A DNA stretch of 20,044 bases from a virus. Where the stretch lies: positions 1-20,044 of IMG/VR virus record IMGVR_UViG_3300032677_001088; one strand, given 5' to 3'. The position numbers and the translations under genes are program-made. How positions within the stretch are numbered: the first letter of the stretch is position 1; every line of letters begins with the position of its first letter. This document shows, piece after piece, positions 6,997 through 17,941 of the stretch. The notes beneath the pieces are model-generated. The model was not told the DNA's origin. It ran no database searches and was given only the letters and a program-made list of their open reading frames with translations.

Positions 6997-7602
6997 TTAT
7001 CTTATAATTGCAACACTTATATCTTCTTGAAAATAGTATTGATAATATTCGTCAGGAGGACGTTTTATTTGCAAAAAGTCGCATAATTCTCTGTTACTAG
7101 ATGGAGTAAGAGTATCGTGTACATGTTGGGCAGTTACGATATTAAAATTTTGCTCTTCTATATGACTGGCCATGGTAGCTAGATCAACATAGTAATCATA
7201 GCAAGGATACTTGATATTAAAGTGCCCGCATTTAACCCACCAACCTAAACATGCATCGTCACCACGATAAACTAACACTACAGGGCAGTTGGGCCATGTA
7301 GTTCTTAAAAAATCTATGTGATTACTTAGTACATGGCTTTTAATAATGCGTGTGCCTGTTCCTGTAAATGGGCTATCGAATAATTGTTCAACAGCTTCTT
7401 TAGGCATGTCTTCTATGTTAGCAGGAATTTCAAATTCCATACCTGGATCAAAGTATGCACCCATGTGCATGACACCTGCGTGATGCTTATAAGTACGATC
7501 TTCTGTATAATCGCTACGATCTATATCTGGACTAAAATAAATGTTCTTAGCAACACTTGACCATTTACTGCCAGGAGCACCTACTACGAATATGTACTTC
7601 AT
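6997..7602 (-). CDS. sulfotransferase-like P-loop protein
   Basis: 201 residues. The N-terminal FVVGAPGSKWSSVAKNI (4-20) fits the 5'-phosphosulfate-binding loop of PAPS sulfotransferases. The segment with RIIKSHVLSNH (about 84-94) and PVVLVYRGDD (about 107-116) resembles the 3'-phosphate-binding strand-helix, including the Arg. Such proteins transfer sulfate from PAPS to hydroxyls or amines of glycans or small molecules. Some family members in phages are divergent and may instead be kinase-like, so the activity is a moderate call. It is joined to Bug protein 2 by a 4-nt ATGA overlap and is the last gene of that coupled block. Confidence 0.6.
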   Translation of the reverse strand: MKYIFVVGAPGSKWSSVAKNIYFSPDIDRSDYTEDRTYKHHAGVMHMGAYFDPGMEFEIPANIEDMPKEAVEQLFDSPFTGTGTRIIKSHVLSNHIDFLRTTWPNCPVVLVYRGDDACLGWWVKCGHFNIKYPCYDYYVDLATMASHIEEQNFNIVTAQHVHDTLTPSSNRELCDFLQIKRPPDEYYQYYFQEDISVAIIR

Positions 7603-8564
7603 TGTTTAATATCCTTTAGTACAGGATAAAATGTCTTGCGTAGACGTTCTCTGTAGACTTGTACACCTTGTGGAGTTAGTTCACGTTCGTCTATAGTAAT
7701 TAAATTATCTTCACGCCATTTTTTATATTCATCGCTACGCACAATAGGAGCAAATGTTTTTGCGTACCAGTCTACAATTTCTTTAGGTGTGTTAGGCGGT
7801 AAAGTTAGTACCCATGCACCGTAAACATTGATACCGGGAGCGATATCATTAAGTAAGGGAACATCTGGTAATTGTGCTAGTTTGCGTTCGCCAGCAACAC
7901 CAATAGCTTTTACTTTGCCTGCATCTATAAATGGTTTAGCAATAGCAACAGGAATCATTCCAAACTCCGTTCCAGACTTGCCATCATACTGTGCTACGCT
8001 TAACAATGTAGGATTAGGTCCATTGAATATAATGAACTGTACTTGACTTTTATCGCCTTTAGTTTTTGCCATTAGATATTCATAACCTGTACGATGTGCT
8101 CCGCCGCCGATTGCAAAATTAATAGGGCGAGTAGGTTTGTGTATTAACTGTGCAAACTCCTTAGGAGTGTTTATAGGACTTTTAGGACTTGCAATTAGGA
8201 TTAAAGGACTTTTGCCTGTTGTTAGCACTTCGCTAAAGCTATCGTAATTGTATTTCTTTACTCCAGCTTCCCATACATCATTTGTAATCCATAAACTCAT
8301 ATGACTTAATACTGCTACAGTATAACCATCTGGTGCGGCTTCGTATAAAGTGTTGGCCGCAATAGCACTATCGGCACCTGGTTTGTTTTCAACAACAAAC
8401 TTAGTTTTATCGCCTGTGCTTTCTAATATTTTTGCTAGTTCTCTAAAACTAATTTCGTTACCACTACCCGGGGCAGTTCCAATAATAACTTTGACAGGCT
8501 GTGTAGGTTCCCAAGCGAATGCTAATGCTGGCACTAATAAGAGTATTGCTAGTAGTCTTTTCAT
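7599..8564 (-). CDS. Bug/TctC-type periplasmic solute-binding protein 2
   Basis: 321 residues with signal peptide MKRLLAILLLVPALAFA before WEP and the Bug opening PVKVIIGTAPGSGNEISF. A central AIGGGAHRTGYEYLMAK and a C-terminal DVPLLNDIAPGINVYGAW match the same regions of Bug protein 1, though overall sequence has diverged well. It overlaps both neighbours by 4 nt (ATGA). As with copy 1, no transporter membrane subunits are encoded nearby. The divergence between copies suggests different ligands (inference). Confidence 0.88.
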   Translation of the reverse strand: MKRLLAILLLVPALAFAWEPTQPVKVIIGTAPGSGNEISFRELAKILESTGDKTKFVVENKPGADSAIAANTLYEAAPDGYTVAVLSHMSLWITNDVWEAGVKKYNYDSFSEVLTTGKSPLILIASPKSPINTPKEFAQLIHKPTRPINFAIGGGAHRTGYEYLMAKTKGDKSQVQFIIFNGPNPTLLSVAQYDGKSGTEFGMIPVAIAKPFIDAGKVKAIGVAGERKLAQLPDVPLLNDIAPGINVYGAWVLTLPPNTPKEIVDWYAKTFAPIVRSDEYKKWREDNLITIDERELTPQGVQVYRERLRKTFYPVLKDIKQ

Positions 8565-11627: not shown

Positions 11628-12167
11628 TTACAGCGTTTCGCCCCCGATAGTTCTTGAACAGGCACACAGTTCCCCCGTTTGAAGACTATCTAAGATTCGA
11701 AGTGTTTCTTCTGGACTACGACCTACATTTAGGTTATTGACTGTGACATGTTGGATAACATTATCTGGGTCAACGATAAATGTTGCTCTCAGTGGTGCTC
11801 CTGCCGGGGCAAAAAATACACCCAATTGCTCGACTAAACTTAGTTCGCCTCGTTGTGTATCGGCAAACTGAGTATGTGTAATTTTCTTCAAGTCTGCGTG
11901 GGCATTTTGCCAGGCAACCGCACAGAATTCGTTATCTGTTGAGCCTGTAAGTAATACAGCATCTCTATCAATAAAATCTTGGTTCAATTTGTCATACCCA
12001 ACAATTTCTGTGGGGCAAACAAAAGTGAAAGATTTTGGATAGTAAACGATTACTTTCCACTTGCCTTCAAAACTTTGATCGGTAATTGTAAAGTATGCGT
12101 CTTCTGGTTGTCCTGGCTTAACACCAGTAATTGCGAAAGCTTCTAATTTATTTCCAACTGTTTTCAT
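11628..12167 (-). CDS. ahpC: alkyl hydroperoxide reductase AhpC, three-cysteine (AhpD-dependent) type
   Basis: 179-residue 2-Cys peroxiredoxin. The peroxidatic Cys51 is in FTFVCPTEI, preceded by the conserved YYPKSFTF. The C-terminus GELCACSR has Cys168 and Cys170. The C-x-C arrangement is that of actinobacterial AhpC, which is recycled by AhpD rather than AhpF, and ahpD is encoded two genes away. It reduces peroxides and would protect the infected cell. AAGGAG lies just upstream of the ATG. A promoter is likely near 12225-12255. Confidence 0.93.
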   Translation of the reverse strand: MKTVGNKLEAFAITGVKPGQPEDAYFTITDQSFEGKWKVIVYYPKSFTFVCPTEIVGYDKLNQDFIDRDAVLLTGSTDNEFCAVAWQNAHADLKKITHTQFADTQRGELSLVEQLGVFFAPAGAPLRATFIVDPDNVIQHVTVNNLNVGRSPEETLRILDSLQTGELCACSRTIGGETL

Positions 12168-13236: not shown

Positions 13237-13262
13237 AAAATGGCTACTTTCGTAGCCATTTT
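13237..13262 (-). terminator. terminator of the tmRNA transcript
   Basis: A 10-bp perfect stem aaaatggcta (13237-13246) with tagccatttt (13253-13262), 6-nt loop. On the minus strand the stem ends in TTTT. It directly follows the tmRNA coding piece. Confidence 0.82.
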
Positions 13263-13615
13263 GGTTAAGTTGGGTGACAAGGATCAACCAATCCTCGCGA
13301 GGGCAGTTTCTTAGGCTGCGATTGCAAATTCGTCATTAGCACTGATGCTAACTGGAACTTGGAAATACTCGAATGTATTTGCTTTTGCATTTACGTTATT
13401 TGCTTGATTTACAGTCATCGCCTACTGTGTTGCCGTCTCTACTATCTCGCCACGTCGAAGCCAATACAGGCCCATCAAAAGAAAACTCAGATCCTTTCAC
13501 GGTTGGCTCCATTACTGGTTAGCCGCAGTATGCATCCTGCCGAATTTTCTTTTGGTGGACCTGCCGGGGGTCGAACCCGGGTCCGCAACGCCTTCGCTTT
13601 GAAGGGATTACAACA
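13263..13615 (-). ncRNA. ssrA: circularly permuted (two-piece) tmRNA
   Basis: On the minus strand the acceptor half comes first: GGACCCGGGTTCGACC T arm, CAGGTCC acceptor strand (13563-13557), discriminator A and CCA ending at 13553. After a 79-nt intervening segment the coding half starts with GGGCCTG (13473-13467). GGGCCTG pairs with CAGGTCC over 7 bp (one G-U), and GGCTTCGACG follows as in other tmRNAs. The ends of the intervening segment form a 10-bp helix (CAAAAGAAAA with TTTTCTTTTG) stacked on the acceptor stem, as expected of a permuted precursor cut into two pieces. The likely tag frame is 13340-13311, ANDEFAIAA then TAA, preceded by CATCAGT. An in-frame GCA further upstream would give a 30-residue tag and is less likely. 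tmRNA with host SmpB rescues stalled ribosomes. The outer ends of both pieces are approximate. Confidence 0.9.
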
Positions 13616-13625
13616 ATTCTTTAAA

Positions 13626-13694
13626 TTAACGCTTTTTCTTAGTAGCTCGCATTGCGGCTTCACGAATACGTTTTTTTGCGATTGGTCTAGTCAT
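13626..13694 (-). CDS. 22-aa highly basic peptide upstream of tmRNA
   Basis: ATG at 13694 preceded by AAAGGAG at ideal spacing and by a strong promoter (13719-13746). The product MTRPIAKKRIREAAMRATKK plus KR has about half Lys or Arg residues. The stop is within about 12-15 nt of the tmRNA acceptor piece, so both share one transcript. It could be a leader peptide, a tiny RNA-binding protein, or a coincidence, but a ribosome site this good makes translation likely. No family recognised. Confidence 0.6.
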   Translation of the reverse strand: MTRPIAKKRIREAAMRATKKKR

Positions 13695-13718: not shown

Positions 13719-13746
13719 ATTATACTATCTTTTGTTTATAAGTCAA
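13719..13746 (-). promoter_or_regulatory. promoter of the 22-aa ORF and tmRNA
   Basis: Minus-strand TTGACT (13746-13741), 16-nt spacer, TATAAT (13724-13719). It shares the 15-mer AAGATAGTATAATTA (13731-13717) with the promoter at 9893-9920. Confidence 0.8.
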
Positions 13747-16607: not shown

Positions 16608-17297
16608 TTATGTAAGTTTTCTAAAGTGCTCGTTATCCTTTTTTGCAAGATACACATTTTCAGGTATTATGTCAAAGGATATAGTAATTCTAGAAATAGT
16701 TGTTTCATTTTTGGCAGTTTTATGGTTAACCCAACTAGGAAAAAATAAACATTCTCCATCGATGTTGTCGATACCCACTATATCTCTCTGCGCCTTAGGC
16801 CCGCCGCCTAGTGTAAAAGAGCTTTTAAAATAAGTTTGTGTATTATTTGTGCGTATGGGTATATTTCCGCTGACATGCGGGCACGGACCTGGTTTGATAT
16901 CAGTATTACTAACCGCATCAAAATGAGTATGCCATGTTATTTCATGCTGAAATCTTAATTCATTCGCCCACATACGTATATACGATCCAGCTGTTTCAAA
17001 ACCCATGGCAGACATATAGTTTTTGTATTCTTCTGCAACGAAATCTTTCAAATATCTTATTTCTTCATAATCTAAATCTAAAAAATTATAACTGCCGTAT
17101 CTTCCAGTGAGCCAAACTGGACTTTTAATAAAATCTGGCTGTTTTGAAATTTCTAAAATGAAGTCTTTTTCTTTTAAAACAATTTCAGCTAGAGCTGTAT
17201 GAACTCCAGGCTTCATCATGGCTGTATAGAAACACACATCTACCGATGGTATTAAGGGAGGCTGTCCTGGAAAATTAATAGTTAACAGTTTCGTCAT
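16608..17297 (-). CDS. 2OG-Fe(II) dioxygenase-like protein
   Basis: 229 residues from the ATG at 17297. An upstream TTG at 17369 would extend into the divergent gene and is rejected. The iron triad is visible: His125-x-Asp127 in WHTHFD, distal His192 in SWVNHKT, and Arg203 (ISRITISFDI) to bind the 2-oxoglutarate carboxylate. A double-stranded beta-helix is expected, as in the phage family usually labelled 2OG-Fe(II) oxygenase. It would hydroxylate a protein, nucleotide or sugar; the target is unknown. It lies between the virion gene and the divergent plus-strand genes, so possibly it modifies a virion component. Confidence 0.8.
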   Translation of the reverse strand: MTKLLTINFPGQPPLIPSVDVCFYTAMMKPGVHTALAEIVLKEKDFILEISKQPDFIKSPVWLTGRYGSYNFLDLDYEEIRYLKDFVAEEYKNYMSAMGFETAGSYIRMWANELRFQHEITWHTHFDAVSNTDIKPGPCPHVSGNIPIRTNNTQTYFKSSFTLGGGPKAQRDIVGIDNIDGECLFFPSWVNHKTAKNETTISRITISFDIIPENVYLAKKDNEHFRKLT

Positions 17298-17317
17298 CTT
17301 GTATTTACGCCTGCTAT

Positions 17318-17325
17318 TATAAATA
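17318..17325 (+). promoter_or_regulatory. T4-type late promoter box TATAAATA
   Basis: An exact TATAAATA 26 nt before the DUF4337 start. Initiation is predicted near 17331, leaving a 20-nt leader that contains GGGAG. T4-type late promoters are read by a phage sigma (gp55-like), which is not in this window. A sigma70-like TATAAT also occurs at 17330-17335. Confidence 0.65.
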
Positions 17326-17350
17326 CTACTATAATCCGGGAGCGAATCAA

Positions 17351-17941
17351 ATGGCTTTAATAGACTCAATTTTAAATTTAGTTACTAAACAACCAAAAGA
17401 CCCAAACGCAGTAAAACCACCAATAGGTAGTCGTAGTGAGCGTGAGGCAAAAATCAAAGACAAGGCAGGTATGGTTATCAGTGTATTTGCCCTGATACTA
17501 GCTGTCAACAGTTGGTACGGCGGTAAGTTAAGCAGTTTAACACTTAATAACACTATTGCGGCCAACGATGTTTGGAGTTTTTACGAAGCTAAAAGCATCA
17601 AACAAATGCTAGCTGAACAATCATTAGATGATGCTATTGTTCGTAAAGACACAGCTAAGATCGAAAAACTAGAAGCTAAGATTGCACGTTACGAAAGTGA
17701 ACCTGCAACTGGTGAAGGTAAAAAAGAACTAATGGCCAAGGCCAAAAAATTAGAAGCTGAACGTGATCAAGCTAAAAAGCAAAGCCCATGGATTGGTTAT
17801 GCCAGTACACTTTATCAGTTGAGTATTGTTGTATTATCAGCAAGTATATTAGCAGTAAGTATGTCTATGTTCTGGGGTAGTTTCTTTGTCGCAGGATTAG
17901 GATTACTGTTGTCAGCACAAGGTGTATTCCTCTGGTTCTAA
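17351..17941 (+). CDS. DUF4337-like membrane protein
   Basis: 196 residues. Membrane segment 1 is at 39-58, followed by NNTIAANDVWSFYEAKSIKQ (66-85), the hallmark of DUF4337 proteins. A charged coiled coil follows (about 100-145), then two closely spaced helices (153-171 and 175-196). Function of the family is unknown. GGGAG lies 8 nt upstream of the ATG. The downstream gene begins 12 nt later and also has a membrane helix, so the two may form an envelope complex (inference). Confidence 0.78.
   Translation: MALIDSILNLVTKQPKDPNAVKPPIGSRSEREAKIKDKAGMVISVFALILAVNSWYGGKLSSLTLNNTIAANDVWSFYEAKSIKQMLAEQSLDDAIVRKDTAKIEKLEAKIARYESEPATGEGKKELMAKAKKLEAERDQAKKQSPWIGYASTLYQLSIVVLSASILAVSMSMFWGSFFVAGLGLLLSAQGVFLWF

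Follow-up and report, generated by a model that had tools for sequence, protein, structure and literature searches.

A permuted tmRNA gene on a phage contig, with an apparently long tag that looks exchangeable among related phages

Whether a virus can carry a working permuted tmRNA gene, and what peptide such a gene would add to unfinished proteins, is the question raised by the DNA described here, a 20,044-base virus record from IMG/VR (G000), the whole of which is called the window. An initial annotation, made from the letters, had placed a circularly permuted, two-piece tmRNA at 13263-13615. A tmRNA does lie there, but on the minus strand and extending beyond the quoted span: ARAGORN calls a circularly permuted tmRNA at 13645-13220 (minus), and the match to the Rfam model RF01850 (beta_tmRNA) spans 13654-13235. 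The search with permuted models that had been suggested as a check gave 124.9 bits for RF01850 against a cut-off of 84, over the full model (1-331), and 135.4 bits for RF04321 (permuted tmRNA) against a gathering cut-off of 47, again over the full model (positions 1-213). Since the ARAGORN call is joined by two full-length matches to permuted models, both far over their cut-offs, chance is excluded. The betaproteobacterial RF01850 is the best clade-specific Rfam model for this RNA. Two stretches are not modelled in its alignment, namely 57 nt in the spacer (against 7 model positions) and 51 nt covering the resume site and the first tag codons (against 2 model positions).

The features of the locus are collected in Table 1. 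The gene order, with the CCA-bearing acceptor piece before the coding piece, is that of permuted tmRNA (RF04321). The acceptor piece ends ...GGTCCACCA, its last A being 13553, and the coding piece begins with GGGCCTG at 13473, both on the minus strand and both where the initial annotation had put them. The 7-bp acceptor stem that it had drawn, GGGCCTG with CAGGTCC, is also found in the sequence; it contains a G3-U70 pair, the alanine signal of the acceptor stem, and carries the discriminator A. For the 79-nt intervening segment (13552-13474) the computed folding energy is -24.7 kcal/mol, where shuffled versions average -15.2 (z -3.25) and one of 200 folds as well. The helix that closes this segment, described earlier as having 10 bp, has at least that number. 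Removal of this segment by processing is expected. No long ORF and no microprotein ORF preceded by a Shine-Dalgarno (SD) sequence was found within the window spacer (13474-13552). The hairpin near the 3' end of the coding piece was not among the listings of the terminator scan. Three promoter-like sites occur in the tmRNA region, against a shuffle mean of 1.6. The peptide encoded by the micro-ORF just upstream is very basic (22 aa), and like or identical basic ORFs precede the tmRNA in some relatives. Upstream of 216 unique viral tmRNAs, a cold-shock-type protein was found in 51 and a basic micropeptide, under a strict filter, in 12 others.

Table 1. Features of the permuted tmRNA locus in the window
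Feature	Position	Strand	Basis
Acceptor (3') piece: T-arm, CAGGTCC, discriminator A, encoded CCA	13553..13620 (5' end approximate)	-	ARAGORN, Rfam, sequence
Intervening segment, 79 nt, with A/T-rich closing helix of at least 10 bp	13474..13552	-	fold z -3.25, sequence
Acceptor stem 5' strand GGGCCTG, G3 paired with U70	13467..13473	-	sequence, core extraction
Coding piece before the tag frame: D-like region, first helices, GTAAAT resume context	13389..13473	-	
Tag frame, 25 codons AKANTFEYFQVPVSISANDEFAIAA plus TAA	13311..13388	-	ARAGORN coding part 258-335
N-terminal extension, 16 codons AKANTFEYFQVPVSIS, missing from 10-aa tags	13341..13388	-	comparison with relatives
Canonical-looking C-terminal degron ANDEFAIAA plus stop	13311..13340	-	ARAGORN, bacterial tags
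Hairpin, 9 bp, GGCTAC-GAAA-GTAGCC core, near the 3' end of the coding piece	13239..13260	-	fold z -3.73
Sigma-70-like promoter TTGACT-16-TATAAT	13719..13746	-	consensus match only, 11/12 positions
Basic micro-ORF, 22 codons MTRPIAKKRIREAAMRATKKKR, AAAGGAG Shine-Dalgarno, immediately 5' of the tmRNA	13626..13694	-	sequence

The assignment of the gene to a viral contig also held. The RNA adjoins a gene for a 935-aa phage head/packaging protein of the virion-protein family PHROG 1645 (E 6e-61); the best match of this protein to cyanophage structural or virion proteins is 33% identical over one third of the length. A second contig (L036) repeats 8.8 kb of the window at 99.99% identity, which argues against an assembly error. 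The window further contains, all on the minus strand, thirteen tRNA genes in a cluster at 87-2187, with the Ile and Asp anticodons duplicated, and genes for a TctC-type solute-binding protein (7599-8564), an AhpC-type peroxiredoxin (11628-12167) and a 2OG-Fe(II) oxygenase (16608-17369). The host-like TctC and AhpC genes would fit a bacterial contig wrongly classed as viral, but this reading is given next to no weight, given the virion protein beside the RNA, the 13-tRNA cluster, and viral records as large as 383 kb that carry long-tag relatives.

For comparison, 40 related viral records were chosen by size from the viral loci; by ARAGORN, 31 of them have a long tag, six a short tag and three no tag. 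TctC occurs in 14 of the 40. The TctC family is rich in Burkholderiales, and together with the fit to the betaproteobacterial model this makes Burkholderiales the best guess for the host, although the evidence is suggestive only. The source of the window is likely a T4-like myophage relative. SmpB was found in none of the 40 records, none of which is known to be complete; host SmpB is therefore presumably used. The window is a 20-kb fragment, and phage genes for SmpB or a protease may lie outside it.

In the comparisons below, the core is the acceptor piece together with the coding piece up to the resume codon. The closest core from a bacterial genome is 81% identical to that of the window; it comes from a contig (L080/L375) that was binned as an Alteromonadales MAG, has a spacer ORF and may itself be viral. 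The next, from a Pelistega MAG, is 77% identical. With nine further phage entries the identity to the window core is 95.8-99.3%. The gene thus seems to pass between phages, and a recent capture from a host is uncertain. Extraction of cores by pairing succeeded for 292 of 300 tmRNAs (eight gave no core), and all 292, of which 278 are viral and 14 bacterial, have G3-U70. Under a stricter extraction, in which 110 were lost, the 3-70 pair of the remaining 203 cores was G-U in 192, C-U in nine and G-C in two. The CCA is encoded in 243 of the 292 cores and its third base differs in 49 (CCT in 27, CCG in 18, CCC in 4); in L097, L110 and at least six others, T-loops such as GGCAGAG or GGCGGAG replace TTCGANN. 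These data bear on the proposal that the window holds a non-functional remnant of a captured host gene, for which it can be said that phages can acquire ssrA fragments at integration sites, as PMC9004378 describes. A remnant is very improbable, however, given a complete structure scoring 135 bits, the copy in the second contig, acceptor pairing and G3-U70 kept in 278 viral cores, and no integrase among the 14 window proteins scanned.

The tag had first been read as ANDEFAIAA alone, and this reading is probably truncated. From the resume position the frame runs from GCA 13388 to the stop TAA at 13313-13311 and has 25 codons (AKANTFEYFQVPVSISANDEFAIAA), a 16-residue extension being followed by the host-like degron ANDEFAIAA. 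The tag seems to be 25 aa long, about two and a half times the usual length. In the beta_tmRNA family the tag habitually has some 10 aa and is of the ANDExxALAA type, a habit outside the Rfam definition, and in the window only the last 9 of the 25 residues are similar to such a tag. The longer reading is favoured by the relatives. The GTAAAT-GCA resume context of the window occupies the scaffold position that it has in relatives with 10-aa tags, and in two of these (L008 and L021), with cores 96.5% identical to that of the window, the tag begins at this same position after GTAAAT, which argues for the longer frame. The same goes for the lack of an inner AND start in many long tags, among them most of those of types B and C (the tag of the window is of type A), and for the bimodal distribution of lengths: in two tag-independent scans of IMG/VR, among the matches listed, 51 of 148 tags had at least 22 aa, 97 had at most 17 and none had 18-21, one false ARAGORN call being left out. 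By scan, tags of at least 22 aa made up 29 of 63 and, among the matches listed, 22 of 85; scans conditioned on the tag start were kept out of these fractions.

Alternatively, the same permuted tmRNA could resume at the inner GCT (13340) to give ANDEFAIAA, the 48 nt upstream serving as RNA structure. This tag would resemble the normal betaproteobacterial one, small hairpins occur in the 48-nt segment, and type-A extensions show a weak codon signal. The position of GTAAAT-GC at 13388, with scaffold spacing as in the 10-aa-tag relatives, speaks against it, as do the type-B and type-C long tags lacking an inner AND start and the in-frame constraint on their extensions described below; on balance an inner start is unlikely.

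ARAGORN itself is imperfect in placing tag starts, as is evident from L090, for which it gave 12 aa where 27 aa are read from the resume site, so that at least this one of the tags called short is in fact long. It called no tmRNA in 72 of 374 sequences, and its calls in L126, L286 and L395 were left out as false. A tblastn search of the loci with nine tags gave 236 rows outside ARAGORN-called tmRNAs; the 79 of these that were listed, which cover only two of the queries, were tags in uncalled tmRNAs, bacterial tags and weak short matches. Many long tags share the prefix A-[KN]-A-[NSD]-T, a start for which two of the four viral scans had selected. At the C-terminus, the 98 distinct long tags end in LAA in 44 cases and in LAV or FAV in 34. 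A cyanophage origin for the type-C tags, which resemble cyanobacterial tags, was considered and rejected; the psbA family was found in none of the 40 related records.

Codon-level constraint on the extensions was assessed as pN/pS in the tag frame and in the +1 and +2 frames, leaving out those codons by which rows had been selected. For type B the values were 0.54 against 1.65 and 1.73 (26 distinct sequences), and 0.56 against 1.43 and 2.27 when restricted to tag-independent loci (14). Type C gave 0.56 against 1.01 and 1.35 (15). For type A, codons 2-13 of tag-independent loci gave 0.67 against 0.98 and 0.99 (15), codons 9-13 gave 0.76 against 0.93 and 1.09 (23), and codons 9-16 gave no signal (0.83 against 0.82 and 1.13). 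A first type-A subset, from which L251 and L316 were left out, had 0.83 against 0.69 and 2.26, and the VP subset, itself picked by two residues within the tested stretch, had 0.48 against 0.70 and 2.81 over codons 9-16 (11). Extensions of type B are thus clearly constrained in frame, those of type C moderately and those of type A weakly, and the occurrence of such constraint in relatives favours the longer reading of the window tag. The same constraint in types B and C bears on the idea that the phage RNA is a decoy or inhibitor, titrating SmpB or the host rescue system with no productive trans-translation. There is a precedent in phage DS6A, whose RNA consists of the TLD only and for which such a role has been suggested; a TLD molecule like that of DS6A inhibits the endogenous tmRNA (PMC4131195, PMC11915505). 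In the window, however, the full frame, the resume context, the stop codon and a degron-like end are all kept, and we regard a decoy as rather improbable.

The tags were then set against their cores in the 216 unique viral tmRNAs, in pairs taken after a length and k-mer prefilter. Among 318 pairs with cores at least 95% identical, which are drawn from few loci and are not independent, the tags were less than 50% identical (over the longer tag) in 152, 50%-80% identical in 77 and at least 80% identical in 89. The 152 pairs with unlike tags comprise 112 long-long and 40 long-short pairs and involve 66 loci. The window gives examples of both kinds: L041 and L038 match its core at 99.3% and have another tag family, and the cores with 10-aa tags mentioned above match it at 96.5%. 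In L008 and L024 the cores are 97.9% and the spacers 94% identical, the tags have 10 and 28 aa, and divergence begins at the resume codon and continues onward. On a weakly resolved core tree (fasttree, 227 rows, 145 columns) the long label changes 26 times, at least nine of these changes being forced by starred branches. Since unlike tags are found on cores at least 95% identical, the tag looks exchangeable, and the tag region looks like a module that related phages swap while the scaffold stays nearly the same. The simplest reading would be that the tag has repeatedly been exchanged together with the 3' domain.

In bacteria the tags were short with one exception. The scaffold pattern occurred in 14 stretches of bacterial genome contigs, all with tags of 10 aa, and a second bacterial set of 13 permuted tmRNAs, sharing three genomes with the first, had tags of 10-11 aa in 12; one permuted ARAGORN call beside a standard tmRNA was left out as false. 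The exception (L386) is a chromosomal permuted tmRNA of Burkholderiales with a 28-aa frame, a GGT resume codon and a canonical-looking last ten residues. It is flanked by ordinary chromosomal genes, and the same genome has, at another place, a second and weaker match to RF04321. Long tags are thus not strictly confined to phages, and in what was sampled they appear to be mostly phage-specific. In a narrow test, none of 369 genomes from the class that includes an Advenella genome contained the exact tag-start pattern. Two phage genomes contain permuted tmRNAs that are not annotated as such in the stretches inspected, Pseudomonas phage PA_L9 (Samunavirus; L002, 1479-1899; tag ANDTSFDVRLAA) and Stenotrophomonas phage vB_Sm_QDWS359 (Bosavirus; L003, 1450-1867; tag ANDSVYAQAIAA).

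Some relatives have spacers that resemble protein-coding microgenes set within a non-coding RNA gene; such an arrangement would be unusual. Of 197 unique viral spacers, 30 contain in full an SD-preceded ORF of 15 codons or more, against 4.8 on average and at most 10 in 200 shuffles. These ORFs belong to several unlike families and often encode a single hydrophobic stretch (for example MNDDLTHLGIGVVVVLVVFALVLL); the SD lies a few bases past the CCA, and the stop is often in a TGAT preceding the coding piece. Examples are found in L010, L041, L202, L035, L242, L104, L056 and L090, and in L110, L049 and L137 the ORF extends beyond the spacer into the coding piece. In small groups formed by shared residues, pN/pS in frame and in the other frames was 0.42 against 0.72 and 2.3, 0.24 against 2.81 and 2.0, 0.27 against 0.70 and 0.98, 0.28 against 2.91 and 0.55, 0.52 against 5.52 and 2.24, and 0.56 against 0.57 and 1.45. 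A further group gave 0.46 against 0.71, its other frame being without synonymous change, and three more groups had one to three changes each, all of them non-synonymous in frame.

In the tmRNA family, RNases release the pieces, alanyl-tRNA synthetase charges the RNA, SmpB delivers it, the tag frame is translated and the product is degraded. We think it fairly probable that the window carries a working phage-borne permuted ssrA of this kind, giving a two-piece tmRNA that would use host SmpB and add a phage-modified tag of 25 residues, the tag being an exchangeable module. One precursor would be transcribed from the sigma-70-like promoter, through the small basic ORF, and host tRNA-processing enzymes would cut it at the CCA and at the acceptor 5' end. 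Judging from the family, the host alanyl-tRNA synthetase would charge the two-piece RNA by way of G3-U70, and host SmpB would carry it to stalled ribosomes. Translation would resume at GCA 13388 and append the 16-residue phage-type extension followed by ANDEFAIAA. The likely effect would be that ribosomes are kept cycling during infection and that unfinished proteins are routed by a signal that the phage has modified. What the extension provides could be a site for a protease or an adaptor, or one at which unfolding is initiated.

A broader proposal, possible though doubtful, is that of a modular tagging system in a group of environmental phages, in which tags of 22-33 residues, each made of an N-terminal specificity module and a degron-like tail, are swapped on an almost fixed scaffold and lead to a protease, adaptor or fate unlike that of the host tag, and in which the spacers of relatives nest membrane microproteins. 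If this were true, truncated proteins in infected cells would go to another protease, adaptor or fate than the one set by the host tag. Tags of tmRNA are usually regarded as short conserved degrons, and many environmental phage contigs appear to lengthen, diversify and exchange them. Such diversification suggests selection on the destination of unfinished proteins in infection, and each tag type offers a natural variant for probing protease and adaptor specificity.

The tmRNAs of the RF04321 and RF01850 families agree with that of the window in gene order, acceptor stem, T-arm, G3-U70, intervening segment, resume codon and stop; the tags of bacterial permuted tmRNAs mostly have 10-11 aa, whereas the window has an apparent tag of 25 aa and a viral location. 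The tmRNAs of mycobacteriophage, of Bacillus phage G and of Mesoplasma florum are one-piece, unlike that of the window. The first two are phage-borne, as in the window (PMC4131195 lists ssrA in both). In Mesoplasma florum, a mycoplasma and one of the bacteria without ClpXP, the ssrA tag is read by Lon and, as described in PMC8138137, departs from the usual in length and sequence, as does the window tag. This divergent Lon-read tag makes a protease switch for phage tags conceivable, and recognition of the window tag by Lon may be put forward as an idea only. Among 79 unique phage tmRNA sequences the commonest tag length was 10 aa, and a tRNA gene was located within one tmRNA spacer (PMC11915505). 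PMC9004378 reports 402 tmRNA-bearing phages among 18,146 phage genomes. Of the 133 unique tmRNA structures, 53 are two-piece, and marine or aquatic samples account for 50 of those 53. Since two-piece tmRNAs of phages were already described there, including the ssrA of phage Melnitz (MZ577097), the existence of a phage permuted tmRNA is not new. Melnitz is T4-like, its authors found no integrase, and its gene is permuted like that of the window; it is alphaproteobacterial-like and described with a glutamine riboswitch (PMC9004378), whereas the window best fits the betaproteobacterial model. The Melnitz tag has 14 aa (ANDNYVPVDYALAA). Among the titles and abstracts that searches of open-licence PMC papers brought up, none dealt with long phage tmRNA tags or spacer microgenes, and what is apparently new in the window, by comparison with these systems, is a long and seemingly modular tag on a phage permuted tmRNA.
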